Below are positions 51,004-56,860 of a DNA stretch of 64,000 bases, piece after piece. The stretch comes from Nonomuraea aurantiaca (GTDB lineage Bacteria; Actinomycetota; Actinomycetes; Streptosporangiales; Streptosporangiaceae). The notes beneath the pieces are model-generated. The model made no database searches and was not told where the DNA came from. It was given only the letters and a program-made list of their open reading frames with translations. The stretch covers positions 1-64,000 of the forward strand of contig NZ_JAIWNB010000011.1 of assembly GCF_020215705.1 (NCBI RefSeq), given 5' to 3'. The position numbers and the translations under genes were made by a program. Numbering within the stretch: the first letter of the stretch is position 1; each line of letters opens with the position of its first letter.

Positions 51004-51696
51004 TTAAGGGGCAAGTCTCTCCAGAACCCATCCGGGGCGCGTTCGCCGATATCGGAGCCTGTCATGCATCCTGTCAAGCTGCCCCTGCCAGAACTCCACC
51101 TCCAGCGGGCTGACCCGGAAGCCGCCCCAGAAGTCGGGCACGGGCGGATGCTCCGGCCACCGGGCGGCCAGCTCGTCGTATCGGGCGTCCAGCTCCTCCC
51201 TGGACCGCACGACCGCGGACTGGCGCGACGCCCAGGCCCCGATCCGCGAGCCGTACGGCCTGGAGTTGAAGTAGTCGGCCGACTCCTCGTGCGAGAGCCG
51301 CACGACCGTGCCCTCGATCCGCACCTGGCGGCGGATCGGGTGCCAGGGGAACAGCAGCGACGCGCGGGCGTTCTCGGCGAGGTCGCGGCCCTTGCGCGAC
51401 TCGTAGTTGGTGTAGAAGACGAACCCCTGCTCGTCATAGCCCTTCAGCAGGACGGTCCTGGCGCTCGGCCGGCCGCCGGCCGAGGCCGTGGCCAGCACCA
51501 TGGCGTTCGGTTCCGGCAGGCCGGCCGTGAGCGCCTCCTGGAACCAGGTGGCGAATTGGGTGATCGGATCGGCGGAGAGATCGGCTTCGAGCAGCGGCTC
51601 GCCCTCATACGTACGGCGAAGCCCCGCCAGCGCGGGCGGGCGCGAGGTGGCATCCACGAGACGGTATTCTTGCGCGCTTGGTGGCAGATCCCACAC
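51004..51696 (-). CDS. pdxH: Pyridoxamine 5'-phosphate oxidase
   Basis: A 230-residue FMN enzyme that oxidises pyridoxamine/pyridoxine phosphate to PLP. Visible are RTVLLKGYDEQGFVFYTNYE, KGRDLAENARASLLFPWH, RQVRIEGTV, YFNSRPYGSRIGAWASRQS and EFWQGQLDRMHDR at the C-terminus. GTG at 51696. It is divergent from citrate synthase, a pairing that is common in actinobacteria. Confidence 0.94.
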   Translation of the reverse strand: MWDLPPSAQEYRLVDATSRPPALAGLRRTYEGEPLLEADLSADPITQFATWFQEALTAGLPEPNAMVLATASAGGRPSARTVLLKGYDEQGFVFYTNYESRKGRDLAENARASLLFPWHPIRRQVRIEGTVVRLSHEESADYFNSRPYGSRIGAWASRQSAVVRSREELDARYDELAARWPEHPPVPDFWGGFRVSPLEVEFWQGQLDRMHDRLRYRRTRPGWVLERLAP

Positions 51697-51833: not shown

Positions 51834-52940
51834 ATGTCCGACTTCAAACCCGGCCTCGAGGGCGTTGTAGCTTTCGAGACCGAGATCGCGGAACCGGACA
51901 AAGAAGGGGGCGCCCTTCGCTACCGGGGTGTCGACATCGAGGAGTTGGTCGGCCGTGTCCCCTTCGGGCACGTCTGGGGCCTGCTGGTCGACAACAAGTT
52001 CCAGCCGGGCCTGCCCCCGGCGGAGCCGTACCCCATTCCTGTCCACTCAGGTGACATCCGCGTAGACGTACAGAGCGCGCTGGCCATGCTGGCCCCGGCC
52101 TACGGCTTCAAGGCGCTCCTCGACATCAGTGACGAGGAGGCCCGCGACCAGCTCGCGCGCGCCTCCGTGATGGCGCTGTCCTTCGTGGCGCAGTCGGCGC
52201 GCGGCCTCGGCCTGCCGATGGTGCCGCAGAGCCGCGTCGACGAGGCCAAGACCATCGTCGAGCGGTTCATGGTCCGCTGGCGTGGCGAGCCCGACCCCAA
52301 CCACGTCAAGGCCATCGACGCCTACTGGACCTCGGCCGCCGAGCACGGCATGAACGCCTCCACGTTCACCGCCAGGGTCATCGCCTCCACCGGCGCCGAC
52401 GTGGCGGCCGCGCTCTCCGGTGCGGTCGGCGCCATGTCCGGCCCGCTGCACGGCGGTGCTCCGGCCCGGGTGCTGCACATGATCGAAGGTGTCGAGCGCC
52501 TGGGCGACGCCAAGAAGTACGTGCAGAGCGAGCTCGACAAGGGCAGCAGGCTGATGGGCTTCGGCCATCGCGTCTACCGTGCCGAGGACCCGCGCGCGCG
52601 GGTGCTGCGCCGTACCGCGAAGGAGCTCAACGCGCCTCGTTACGAGGTCGCCGCCGCTCTGGAGCAGGCCGCGCTGGAGGAACTCCACGCGCGCAAGCCC
52701 GACCGGGTGCTCGCCACGAACGTCGAGTACTGGGCGGCCGTGGTGCTGGACTTCGCCGAGGTGCCGTCGCACATGTTCACCTCGATGTTCACCTGCGCCC
52801 GTACGGCCGGCTGGGCCGCGCACATCCTGGAGCAGAAGCTCACGGGCCGCCTGGTCCGCCCGAGCGCCAAGTACATCGGCCCGGCGTCGCGTCCGCTCAG
52901 CGACGTCCCCGGCGCCTCCGAGGTCGTCGGCATCATCTGA
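51834..52940 (+). CDS. citA: Citrate synthase, type 2-like
   Basis: A 368-residue enzyme condensing acetyl-CoA and oxaloacetate. The N-terminal MSDFKPGLEGVVAFETEIAE and motifs GPLHGGAPARVL, MGFGHRVYRAEDPRARVLR and FTSMFTCARTAGWAAHILEQ hold the His/Asp catalytic set. ATG at 51834 with GGGAGG ten bases upstream gives the standard length; the open frame to 51768 adds non-homologous residues. A strong terminator follows. Confidence 0.94.
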   Translation: MSDFKPGLEGVVAFETEIAEPDKEGGALRYRGVDIEELVGRVPFGHVWGLLVDNKFQPGLPPAEPYPIPVHSGDIRVDVQSALAMLAPAYGFKALLDISDEEARDQLARASVMALSFVAQSARGLGLPMVPQSRVDEAKTIVERFMVRWRGEPDPNHVKAIDAYWTSAAEHGMNASTFTARVIASTGADVAAALSGAVGAMSGPLHGGAPARVLHMIEGVERLGDAKKYVQSELDKGSRLMGFGHRVYRAEDPRARVLRRTAKELNAPRYEVAAALEQAALEELHARKPDRVLATNVEYWAAVVLDFAEVPSHMFTSMFTCARTAGWAAHILEQKLTGRLVRPSAKYIGPASRPLSDVPGASEVVGII

Positions 52941-52994: not shown

Positions 52995-55622
52995 TCATTG
53001 GGGGGCTTTCATCGGATAGTCGGCGGTGTCGGGCAGGTGGGCGCACACGGTGTCCTTCGGGGGCGGCTCGCTGACGTCCAGCGAGCCGCAGCGGACGACC
53101 GGCTTGGGGTTGCCCGCCCGCGCCACGTCCACCTTCATGATCGCGATGGCCTTGTCGACCGGCGCGTGCAGATCGGCGGAGCCGAAGTCGATCTTCCCGC
53201 TGGAGCCGTTCCAGACCCGCCGGGTCAGCCGGTAAAGGATGTCGCCCCGGCTGGGCAGGCCGCCGCCCTCCTGCGCACCGGCCCGGTAGGCGGTGCTGGC
53301 CGCCTGGTAGAGCACGTTGGCCGCGTCGAAGGTGAGGATGAGGTTGTCGTCGGAGGACTTCGCGTGCGCGCCCGCGAGCAGGCCGCTGATGAACGCGGTC
53401 TGCTTGGTGGCGCTCTGGTTCCACACCGCCCGGTGCGCCAGCGCCACGTAGTAGACCTCCATCTGCTTCATGTGGGCGATCTCACCGGCGTGCTCGGCCA
53501 TCGCCCTGACGACGTCGTCGCCCGCGAGCACCTTCGCGTCCTTGCAGCCGCTGCCCTCGACCGAGGCCAGGAAGCCGAGGAACTCCGAAGCCCGCCCGGC
53601 ATAGAGGAAGACGTCCGGTTTGAGGCCACAGGCCGCCACAGCGGCCTCCTGGATGCCGCCCGACTCGACGTTGTAGTCCTTCGGCTCCTTGACGGTGATC
53701 CCCTGCGCCGTCAGCGCGGTCTCGAAGTCGTCGGCCAGGTTCTTCGTGTACTGGTCGGTGATCGATTCGTCCTGGACGATGACCGCGACCGGCTTGTCCA
53801 CGTCCGCGAGCAGCATGCGCCGGGCGAACCGCGCGCCCAACGTCGCCTCACGGAAGTTGGTCGGCCCCATCTGGAAGTAGTAGGGGGACGGCTGGCCGGG
53901 CTGCTCGCCGTCGGCGGAGTCGCCGACGTAGCCGATCCGGTCCGCCGTCGCCGTGGTCGCCACCATCGGGATCTTCGCCAGGTGCAACTCCTCGATCGCC
54001 TGGCTGACGCCCTCCACACTGCGCGGCAGGCCGATCACGCCCATCACGTGCGGGTCCTGCGCGGCGAGCTCGGTGATGAGCTGCGCCGTCCGGCGGCCGT
54101 GGCGGAAGTTGTCGCCGGCGTTGGCGATCAGCACCTGCAGCCGGGGCGTGGTGCTGGCGGTCCGCTGCTGCTCCTCCACCGCTTCCAGCTCCGACACGGC
54201 GGCCGACAGCCGGGTGTCGTTCGCCTCCGTCTTCATGATCGAGAACTCGCCGAACAGGACCACGCTGACATACCGTCCCGAGCCGAGGGCGTAGGCGTTG
54301 TTCGCGTCGATCTTCTTGACCAGCTGCTTCACGGCGCCGTCGAAGAGGTCGTCCGGCGTGTCGGCGGTGGCGTTCACGATGCCGACGCACTCGGTCCCGC
54401 TGCGCTCCGCCCATTGCAGACCGCCGCAGTGCGCGGCCCTGTCCCGCTGCATCCATAAGACCAGGGCGAACGGCAGGACCAGCAGCAGCCCTATGGCCGT
54501 CCAGTAGGCCAGGGCCCGCTTCCTGCGCGGCAGTACCGGCGGGTACGACCCGACTGCGGGCACCTCCGTGGCCCGGATGCCGATCCGCAGGTCAGGGACG
54601 CGCAGCCGGGCCGCGGCCCGCCACCGCCCGACGACCTCGGGCAGCTCGTCCAGCTCCGCGGACCCGATCGGCGGTCCGGGCGGGACGGAGGACACGGCCG
54701 CCAGCACGACCATCGGCGGCAGCAGCCCGGTCTTCTTGGTGGTCTCCTCCACCAGCCGCAGGAACCGCGCGTTGACCCCGTCGGGATCGACGACCTGGAT
54801 CAGCAGCAGGGCGTACAGCCCCCTGCCCCAGCTCGGCCACGGGATGATCCACTTCTTGTACGCCTCGCGCAGATCCCGGATCAGCGCGTGCACCAGTAAC
54901 CGCTCGATGGCGTCGTCGTCGGCGTTGGCCAGGCGCAGCGCGTACGGGGTGGGCCGCTCGAACCGCTTACGCCGTACGTACGGCTGCTTGCGCAGCCAAC
55001 CGGTGAACAGCGTCCCCCTGATCGAGAAGAAGGCCTGGCCGGTGGTGCCGAGCGCGGCCACCAGCAGGCCGAGCACCCACGGGGCGAGGCCGACGAGGTC
55101 GGCGGGGCCGTTGAACCACCAGACGGCCAGCGTGCCGACCGGCACCCAGGTCGTCGCGGCGCGCGCCAGGAAGTCGGCCGAGGTCCTGCGCCCCCGGTCG
55201 CTGTCGCGGCTGCTCCGCTGCCACTCCTTGAGCCGTTCCTTGAACGCCCGGTAGCCCCTGTGCGAGTGCGGATCCGGCGGCCAGCTCCCGGCGGCGTCCG
55301 GCGGCGGCAGGTCCCGCTGCTCCCTCGCCCAGAGCACGAACTGCGCGAGCGGGAAGCGCGGCGGCGGCAGCAGCGACCCGCCCACCGGCTTGCCCAGCTG
55401 GCCGTGCTCCCCCGCGAGGGCCTTCACCAGCTCCTGGACCGTCCCGTACGCGCCCTCCTTGACGTGGGCGTAGGGCACGGAGTCCTGAAAGGGCTCGGCG
55501 AGCAGCTCGACCGCGGCGAGCGCCTCAGGGCCCGTCACGAGCACCGTGGGCAGTGGCGGGTCGGCCCGCCAGAACACCGGCCGGCGAATCAACGCTTCGA
55601 CGACACTCCGCAGATCGGCCAC
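52995..55622 (-). CDS. Membrane chimera: cytosolic N-domain plus extracellular type I ligand-binding domain
   Basis: An 875-residue protein. The N-terminal cytosolic region (about residues 1-150) opens with TVLVTGPEALAAVELL, which resembles an ATPase-like beginning without the Walker lysine. A hydrophobic pair follows (about 155-205), then a helical cytosolic domain (about 220-370), a third membrane segment (about 370-395) and an extracellular domain (about 400-870). The last is of the branched-chain amino-acid-binding type (PVAVIVQDESITDQYTKNLA and IPMVATTATADRIG). GTG at 55622 has GGAGGAG upstream. It looks like a one-piece ligand sensor rather than a transporter. Function unknown. Confidence 0.72.
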   Translation of the reverse strand: MADLRSVVEALIRRPVFWRADPPLPTVLVTGPEALAAVELLAEPFQDSVPYAHVKEGAYGTVQELVKALAGEHGQLGKPVGGSLLPPPRFPLAQFVLWAREQRDLPPPDAAGSWPPDPHSHRGYRAFKERLKEWQRSSRDSDRGRRTSADFLARAATTWVPVGTLAVWWFNGPADLVGLAPWVLGLLVAALGTTGQAFFSIRGTLFTGWLRKQPYVRRKRFERPTPYALRLANADDDAIERLLVHALIRDLREAYKKWIIPWPSWGRGLYALLLIQVVDPDGVNARFLRLVEETTKKTGLLPPMVVLAAVSSVPPGPPIGSAELDELPEVVGRWRAAARLRVPDLRIGIRATEVPAVGSYPPVLPRRKRALAYWTAIGLLLVLPFALVLWMQRDRAAHCGGLQWAERSGTECVGIVNATADTPDDLFDGAVKQLVKKIDANNAYALGSGRYVSVVLFGEFSIMKTEANDTRLSAAVSELEAVEEQQRTASTTPRLQVLIANAGDNFRHGRRTAQLITELAAQDPHVMGVIGLPRSVEGVSQAIEELHLAKIPMVATTATADRIGYVGDSADGEQPGQPSPYYFQMGPTNFREATLGARFARRMLLADVDKPVAVIVQDESITDQYTKNLADDFETALTAQGITVKEPKDYNVESGGIQEAAVAACGLKPDVFLYAGRASEFLGFLASVEGSGCKDAKVLAGDDVVRAMAEHAGEIAHMKQMEVYYVALAHRAVWNQSATKQTAFISGLLAGAHAKSSDDNLILTFDAANVLYQAASTAYRAGAQEGGGLPSRGDILYRLTRRVWNGSSGKIDFGSADLHAPVDKAIAIMKVDVARAGNPKPVVRCGSLDVSEPPPKDTVCAHLPDTADYPMKAPQ

Positions 55623-55672
55623 CCGGACTCCTCCAGCCGGACCTCACCCCGTGTTGCTGGTCCAACGAATGA

Positions 55673-56860
<1,188 letters not shown>

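Follow-up and report, generated by a model that had tools for sequence, protein, structure and literature searches.

A probable one-piece transmembrane receptor of Nonomuraea aurantiaca that joins a Venus-flytrap ectodomain to a degenerate STAND-like cytosolic domain

Venus kinase receptors of invertebrates unite, in the relevant sections of their description (PMC2680970), a Venus-flytrap ectodomain, a transmembrane (TM) segment and a cytosolic signalling domain in one piece, with amino acids as proposed ligands. STAND-type signalling ATPases are held in an ADP-bound resting state according to the parts of two papers that address their regulation (PMC4381067; PMC6468293), and catalytically inactive STAND domains occur in the iSTAND ternary systems, as outlined in the corresponding section of Kaur et al. 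(2020; PMC7159879). Here, we analyse a gene in a 64,000-nucleotide stretch of Nonomuraea aurantiaca DNA (NCBI RefSeq assembly GCF_020215705.1, contig NZ_JAIWNB010000011.1, positions 1 to 64,000 of the forward strand; hereafter the window), the product of which is probably a one-piece TM receptor that would recognize an amino-acid-like ligand and signal via a catalytically dead STAND-like cytosolic domain. The fused receptor family was not encountered in the open-licence papers searched; its parts are known, their combination was not found in that literature, and the protein is best classed as a membrane Venus-flytrap receptor with a pseudo-STAND domain, not a STAND ATPase. The gene and its translation start are as follows.

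52995..55622, minus strand: whole gene for the predicted 875-residue fused receptor (pseudo-NTPase, TM hairpin, further TM helix, type-I periplasmic-binding ectodomain), from the open reading frame, Pfam, tblastn and coding statistics
55628..55634, minus strand: ribosome-binding site GGAGGAG, 5 nt upstream of the GTG start, by direct reading of the sequence

The plus strand over the same interval also holds a frame of 486 residues. The minus-strand frame, which starts with GTG, is taken as the gene because it has the top coding score (282) among the genes chosen in the window and because tblastn finds near-full-length relatives of the 875-residue protein, with 52-80% identity, in six named genomes; the coding-statistics caller is a simple, home-made one that misplaces some starts. 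Pfam assigns Peripla_BP_6 to residues 554-832 (E 5.3e-8, 33.3 bits versus a curated cut-off of 31.7) as the sole family above cut-off, NCBIfam places no family on the protein, and a phmmer search of the whole protein against the PDB returned nothing real. The protein is composed of the following parts.

55158..55622, minus strand: residues 1-155, first half of the predicted cytosolic pseudo-NTPase core (strand 26-30, helix 34-45, strand 51-54), from the AlphaFold2 (AF2) model and hhalign with residues 1-120
55029..55154, minus strand: residues 157-198, predicted TM hairpin inserted in the NTPase-like domain, from hydropathy, model and charges
54675..54917, minus strand: residues 236-316, second half of the predicted pseudo-NTPase core (RDLREAY helix, Walker-B-like strand, sensor-like strand), from hhalign with residues 222 onward
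54444..54512, minus strand: residues 371-393, predicted last TM helix with RRKR just before it, from hydropathy (371-389) and charges
53019..54428, minus strand: residues 399-868, predicted extracellular type-I periplasmic-binding (Venus-flytrap) domain, from Pfam, Foldseek and a PDB profile search

A cytosolic part is thus followed by the TM hairpin, a second cytosolic part, the last TM helix and a binding domain of 470 residues. The hydropathy scan recognizes two membrane segments, 176-194 and 371-389; the first hairpin helix (approximately 157-171) stems from sequence reading and the models and received no hydropathy call, and the AF2 model of the N-terminal domain (N-domain) shows helices 142-171 and 179-199 in the hairpin region with low predicted local distance difference test (pLDDT) values. 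Four lysine or arginine residues in 141-156 and eight in 199-225 flank the hairpin, and RRKR precedes the last helix; these basic flanks fit a prediction with a cytosolic N-terminus and an extracellular binding domain, and the conserved cysteines of the C-terminal domain would fit its export.

By profile computation, the N-domain of the fused family is a homolog of stand-alone ATPases, proteins which are recognized by AAA_16, AAA_22 or STAND-type Pfam models, nearly all below cut-off, and most of which carry Walker A motifs such as GPRGSGKT. The hhalign comparison of a profile of 29 fused N-domains (A1) with a profile of eight stand-alone ATPases (A2) gave 98.9% probability (E 1.8e-17) over 281 columns between A1 positions 13-332 and A2 positions 18-304, with 5.1% for reversed A2 and at most 1.9% for eight column shuffles as controls; all these values are pairwise and have no database calibration. 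Each half also matches alone (residues 1-120 with 94.9%, E 4.8e-8; residues 222 onward with 96.2%, E 2.1e-9), and the alignment pairs TVLVTGPEAL with the P-loop, the DLREAY helix with ADLRDDF, LLLIQVVD with VLLDNVD and PMVVLAA with PLTFVATS. HMMER searches of the local frame set cross over in both directions, as A1 finds the stand-alone ATPases L069 (1.2e-12) and L093 (2e-12), and A2 the ectodomain-holding frames L157 (9.7e-13), L155 (6.8e-12) and L077 (1.4e-11); the genome search with A1 also caught stand-alone ATPase genes in two genomes (G388, 2.6e-8; G179, 2.8e-7).

The AF2 model of the N-domain (predicted template modelling score 0.73, mean pLDDT 70) displays strand 26-30, helix 34-45 and strand 51-54 and, after the hairpin, helix 236-255 and strands 271-277, 304-310 and 346-350. 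A second look at this model with VIA-align ranked 8bob_C (Z 9.0), Cdc6 (8.6), the origin recognition complex (8.1), RdrA (8.0) and a plant NLR resistosome (7.8) first, with many p97, Cdc48 and NSF chains at lower ranks and CED-4 at rank 43. The entry 8bob is on the E. coli maltose-system regulator, and 8bob_C is most likely the MalT chain. Homology to the nucleotide-binding core of STAND proteins is indicated by the hhalign match to the stand-alone ATPases, with the fold ranking as the weaker support.

The motifs expected for nucleotide handling are altered at two places.

55488..55553, minus strand: residues 24-45 (LPTVLVTGPEALAAVELLAEPF), degenerate P-loop lacking GK[S/T], aligned with GPRGSGKT of a stand-alone ATPase
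54786..54809, minus strand: residues 272-279 (LLLIQVVD), putative Walker-B-equivalent strand opposite VLLDNVD in the hhalign alignment, uncertain by one residue

Loss of the P-loop is computed across the sampled fused family: not one of 76 distinct fused homologs displays GK[S/T] at this site, two of them (L021, L158) having truncated N-termini in which the P-loop is not visible; the set was reduced from 77 by removal of a stand-alone ATPase (L069|3). The Walker A motif GxxxxGK[S/T] is absent from the window protein and the P-loop is shortened in the fused proteins; of the distinct stand-alone ATPases, 16 of 19 possess GK[S/T]. Two candidate P-loops were rejected, GVAGIGKS of L045, the sole GK[S/T] match anywhere before an ectodomain, which lies 58 residues before the called start, and GRITFGKA of L071, which reads GKA and is located away from the P-loop region. 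At the Walker B aspartate the window protein has Q276 or V277, whichever register is chosen, and the column holds E in 7, D in 7, Q in 3 and other residues in the remainder of the 29 rows of A1, so that an acidic residue persists in part of the rows while Walker A has been lost. The stand-alone ATPases furthermore share an invariant T-G-P set in TGGHPG (A2 positions 368, 370 and 372), which fits the GxP motif named for STAND proteins in the pertinent part of PMC6468293. Homology to the ATPase ends near residue 316, where the last TM helix follows, and the window protein has neither GxP motif nor winged helix; the ATPase part after position 304, with TGGHPG, is missing in the fused proteins of A1.

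As Walker A is lost, the cytosolic domain should be a nucleotide-independent scaffold or regulator, and ATP binding by it is not expected. The alternative that it still binds nucleotide in a non-canonical manner and operates as an ordinary STAND switch is unlikely; the core strands and helices are kept, the Walker B column is acidic in almost half of the fused N-domains and the domain looks to be under purifying selection, but the shortened P-loop without any GK[S/T] and the absence of the TGGHPG-bearing part speak against such a switch. The sequence-only reading of this gene had described a LivK-type ectodomain, membrane segments and a cytosolic region in one polypeptide, a cytosolic stretch resembling a P-loop that has lost its lysine, and no adjoining ABC (ATP-binding cassette) permease or ATPase. 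The first is borne out by Pfam, Foldseek and hydropathy, the second by the profile matches to stand-alone ATPases with mostly intact Walker A, and the third agrees with the gene scan of the window.

The distant homologs of the binding domain include short proteins of approximately 450-520 residues which consist only of TM and binding domain, and many of these are encoded directly behind the gene for an ATPase of approximately 640-740 residues. When ATPases were searched for independently of the binding domain, with A2 in 296 genomes of the class and at most four candidates scored per genome, which makes the counts lower bounds, at least 16 genomes gave a match; 13 matches were stand-alone ATPase genes and three lay in frames of fused relatives. 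A gene for a TM-binding protein directly follows on the same strand in 12 of these 13, the exception being L109/L120, and in L120 no binding-protein gene was found. In Nonomuraea longispora (L003/L179), a fused gene coexists with a stand-alone ATPase gene located about 9 kb further along; this ATPase has GKS, and a TM-binding protein is encoded behind it. A plasmid of Streptantibioticus cattleyicolor shows, at NC_016113.1:727181-730713, partial matches to both parts approximately 1 kb apart on one strand, and thus appears to carry a two-gene pair.

Other surroundings of such genes were observed as well. In L117, L118, L119 and L120 (family f18), a deaminase-like gene precedes the ATPase gene, joined in three of the four by an oxygenase-like gene, and cytochrome-c-biogenesis-like genes are nearby (all by eye). 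In L086:2711-6186, a related 497-residue TM-binding protein adjoins a different ATPase, which has an intact Walker A, matches KAP_NTPase and AAA_22 above cut-off and, by eye, itself contains hydrophobic segments, so that receptor and ATPase are paired here in another way; in L088:2931-8231, a related TM-binding protein is flanked on each side by a Ser/Thr protein kinase-like gene (by eye).

In the unrooted ectodomain tree, 18 paired and five unpaired binding proteins form one clade with support 100 that includes the fused L079, and the 75 other fused proteins are located outside of it (L114_5, a fragment of an ATPase with a very long branch, was left out of the binding-protein count). The position of L079 within this clade of an unrooted tree implies at least two fusions or fissions; fusion is favoured since the fused N-domains are the degraded ones, and the two-gene form would accordingly be ancestral. 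L079 (L079:4645-8201), which keeps the C-terminal half of the ATPase and has a GSGKS P-loop in another frame just upstream, would be a second, independent fusion. L065 and L067 encode TM-binding proteins of the paired clade for which no ATPase partner was found in the stretch examined, and these may be orphaned or act in trans.

The two domains of the fused proteins have conflicting histories. In the N-domain tree, L023, L024, L026 and L058 join the window-type rows in a clade of 20 rows (100/100), and in the ectodomain tree they group with another set of 10 rows (100/100). The approximately unbiased (AU) test rejected joining them to the window type in the ectodomain tree (p-AU 3.4e-4) and to the other group in the N-domain tree (p-AU 2e-11), p-values which were not pre-planned as the groups were named after the identity table had been seen. 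From the conflict of the two trees we infer that ectodomains have been exchanged. Tandem fused copies which are mutually divergent (L004:10001-15254, L061:5345-13555) would allow such an exchange and are a possible source of it.

The nature of the ligand can be approached by the predicted pocket.

53517..54020, minus strand: span with S535, T559, Y625 and D702, predicted alpha-amino-acid contact residues, from the position match to 3td9 in the profile alignment

The window protein passes the curated cut-off of Peripla_BP_6, and 10 of 30 aligned ectodomains match this family at E<=0.01. The profile of 30 homologous ectodomains recovers the LivK-type 3td9 from the PDB (E 1.1e-11) with other amino-acid binding proteins next, and with the full-length model (mean pLDDT 66) Foldseek retrieves mGluR2 ectodomains (E 8.2e-15) and the LivK-like 3td9 and 7ylt (template modelling scores 0.76 and 0.79, respectively, by target length). 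S535, T559, Y625 and D702 align with polar residues of 3td9 and are kept in the 30 homologs as S in 28, T in 26 and S in 4, Y in 26 and F in 4, and D in 25, respectively. They presumably correspond, by our reading of LIVBP/mGluR relationships, to mGlu1 residues such as S165, T188, Y236 and D318. These mGlu1 residues are listed in the relevant passage of PMC2680970. As the pocket positions of 3td9 are kept in the homologs, the ligand is likely an amino acid or an amino-acid-like molecule.

The nearest solved relatives being LivK/LivJ-type transporter binding proteins, and one distant relative being annotated as 'ABC transporter substrate-binding protein', the protein could be a membrane-tethered binding protein which supplies an ABC amino-acid importer encoded at another locus, with the cytosolic domain as a regulatory anchor. 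We regard this as improbable, however: no such permease or ATPase is adjacent to the gene in the window, so that the protein does not classify as a transporter substrate-binding protein by its neighbourhood, and no branched-chain-type importer was seen by eye beside those relatives whose gene lists were inspected, other ABC-like genes lying a few genes off in some of them (for example L005, L061 and L067). An anchor would not need a conserved cytosolic fold either, and the two-gene form pairs with a STAND-like ATPase.

The gene resides at a conserved locus.

55751..56860, plus strand: serC (phosphoserine transaminase), divergent neighbour
51834..52940, plus strand: citrate synthase, convergent neighbour
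51004..51657, minus strand: pdxH

A protein of the major facilitator superfamily is also among the neighbours in the window. Across the 60 distinct fused loci for which 8.5 kb or more of sequence is available, serC is present within three genes in 34, pdxH in 30 and serC together with citrate synthase in 25. At the shared loci, the median identity to the window is 33% for the N-domain and 31% for the ectodomain (27 loci), as compared with 78% for serC (27 loci), 81% for citrate synthase (24) and 62% for pdxH (25), which characterizes the fused receptor, on sequence comparison, as a fast gene at a stable, old locus. Both domains look to be under purifying selection, with YN00 ratios of nonsynonymous to synonymous substitution (dN/dS) versus the nearest relative of approximately 0.17 for the N-domain and 0.11 for the ectodomain. 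The synteny with these three genes marks a position on the chromosome and does not reflect an operon. At E<=1e-5, at least 79 of the 150 family genomes contain a match to the whole window protein (split forms are counted in), and A1 matches at least 26 of 296 genomes of the class, all tallies being lower bounds with at most 4-6 candidates scored per genome. In the own genome, the single-sequence search gave one match, to which the ectodomain profile search adds a second, divergent fused frame on contig C58 outside the window (L186:6021-8624; 867 residues from stop to stop, nearest to L096 and L160); by eye its N-terminal part has no GK[S/T], and it is not counted among the 76.

A receptor of a biological-conflict (defence) system had also been suggested for this gene, which is about as improbable as the importer. 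Inactive STAND domains and TM plus extracellular periplasmic-binding modules do occur in predicted conflict systems of multicellular bacteria, as the relevant sections of PMC7159879 report, and two stand-alone partner ATPases gave weak PADLOC matches (mad8, 2.6e-4; PDC-S01, 8.5e-3). PADLOC, on the other hand, did not recognize the window protein, the scanned neighbours (approximately 45.1-58.1 kb) showed no vWA, MoxR, caspase or other effector, and the locus is shared with the housekeeping genes serC, citrate synthase and pdxH. That the protein begins with a simple, unrelated membrane anchor whose P-loop likeness is accidental, as the missing Pfam match and the missing significant Foldseek match of the N-domain might suggest, is highly improbable in view of the hhalign and HMMER crossover with its controls.

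Of the interpretations offered by the sequence-only reading, the new type of TM sensor is thus the best one, though unproven, and the conflict-system receptor has found no support, with no PADLOC match and no effector or defence gene in the scanned neighbourhood of a housekeeping locus. Its doubt whether the N-terminal region might be a simple, unrelated anchor was answered by the ATPase homology and by AAA+/STAND chains ranking first in VIA-align; the search for conserved neighbours that it recommended yielded the shared serC, citrate synthase and pdxH locus but no conserved output gene, and close relatives with a proven role, which would have spoken against novelty, were not met among those found.

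Several observations weigh against the proposed receptor and its history. Pfam places no family on the window N-domain and only scattered weak ones on the 29 members, Foldseek gave no match of the N-domain model to the PDB at E<=0.001, and the models are middling, with mean pLDDT of 66 and 70 and mostly below 50 in the TM region. As only 3 of 999 chains reach Z>=8 by header count, with many general AAA+ chains below, the VIA-align ranking is supportive, but not decisive. The TM hairpin is not present in all relatives; in L123, L154, L156, L157 and L160, hydropathy shows only the helix preceding the ectodomain. Three stand-alone ATPases (L095, L151/L115 and L113) also have R or A in place of the Walker lysine. 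The NG86 estimates of dN/dS are higher (0.68 for the N-domain, 0.46 for the ectodomain), NG86 being poorly suited to the base composition. No conserved output gene or partner, nor an effector domain, was seen among the neighbourhoods of relatives, and the own genome showed no full-length stand-alone ATPase (150 of 206 candidates scored), but only P-loop-sized matches, the best at 5e-5. The window-type ectodomain, finally, has a very long branch (2.04) and treekit issued a warning that long branches meet, wherefore very fast change in this lineage is a possible alternative to ectodomain exchange.

Architecture, N-domain homology, P-loop loss in the sampled family, operon pairing, the conserved locus and the conflicting domain histories are direct results of computation; a receptor function of the fused protein is their suggested meaning. 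In the proposed receptor, the Venus-flytrap ectodomain would close on a small extracellular ligand and the closure movement would be passed via the last TM helix to the cytosolic domain, which would descend from a STAND-type signalling ATPase and be tethered to the membrane through its own TM hairpin. The dead STAND-like domain would then act by partner binding or self-assembly. The fused protein appears to share ancestry with the actinomycete two-gene system of an ATPase and a separate TM-binding protein, in which ligand binding is expected to release the ADP-bound resting ATPase, as in STAND proteins generally.

Whether these proteins constitute an undescribed class of actinomycete receptors, in which an operon of a Venus-flytrap TM receptor and a dedicated STAND ATPase was fused more than once, with the ATPase half in the window lineage now a dead, membrane-embedded transmitter and with this lineage acquiring new targets by exchange of ectodomains at a fixed locus, we consider an evenly balanced question. 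If so, a sensor of extracellular ligands would be directly coupled to STAND-type ATPases, the best-studied members of which sense intracellularly. A natural series from the active two-gene form to the fused pseudo-ATPase would be at hand, signal transmission by a dead STAND domain would become testable, and attention would be drawn to small-molecule receptors of actinomycetes with a seemingly swapped ligand domain.

Among known systems, the LivK/LivJ binding proteins (Peripla_BP_6) share the fold and the aligned amino-acid contact residues with the window ectodomain, whereas the window protein is membrane-anchored, carries a cytosolic domain and has no adjacent ABC transporter. In the KAP NTPases, TM helices are inserted in the P-loop domain, and these were considered because of the TM hairpin inserted in the NTPase-like domain of the window protein; membership found no support, as A1 gave 0.5% versus a four-row KAP alignment, few KAP rows being usable, and none of the 29 members matches Pfam KAP. 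STAND ATPases such as MalT, PH0952 and the NLRs resemble the stand-alone partners, which possess Walker A in 16 of 19 cases, an LLDN Walker-B-like motif, a VATSR-like strand and the T-G-P set, and 8bob_C and NLR-type chains are among the best VIA-align rows for the window N-domain model. Unlike them, the window protein has no Walker A, carries a TM helix and a binding domain in place of the post-core part, and contains an inserted TM hairpin.

With the iSTAND ternary systems the window protein has the inactive STAND domain in common, but these are defined, in the section devoted to them (PMC7159879), by vWA and MoxR partner genes, neither of which is among the scanned neighbours; the distinction is by partner genes and not by profile comparison. 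The two-gene EACC1/caspase system of actinobacteria (section 33 of the same paper) likewise has TM helices followed by an extracellular periplasmic-binding domain, which is there, according to that section, one of many variable modules behind a caspase, whereas in the present family it regularly accompanies a STAND-like ATPase; no caspase match was obtained in the window protein or its scanned neighbours, EACC1 not having been searched by profile. The Venus kinase receptors, with a tyrosine kinase in place of the pseudo-STAND domain and with a single TM segment in the part of their description concerned (PMC2680970), are at most an analogy to this one-piece arrangement.

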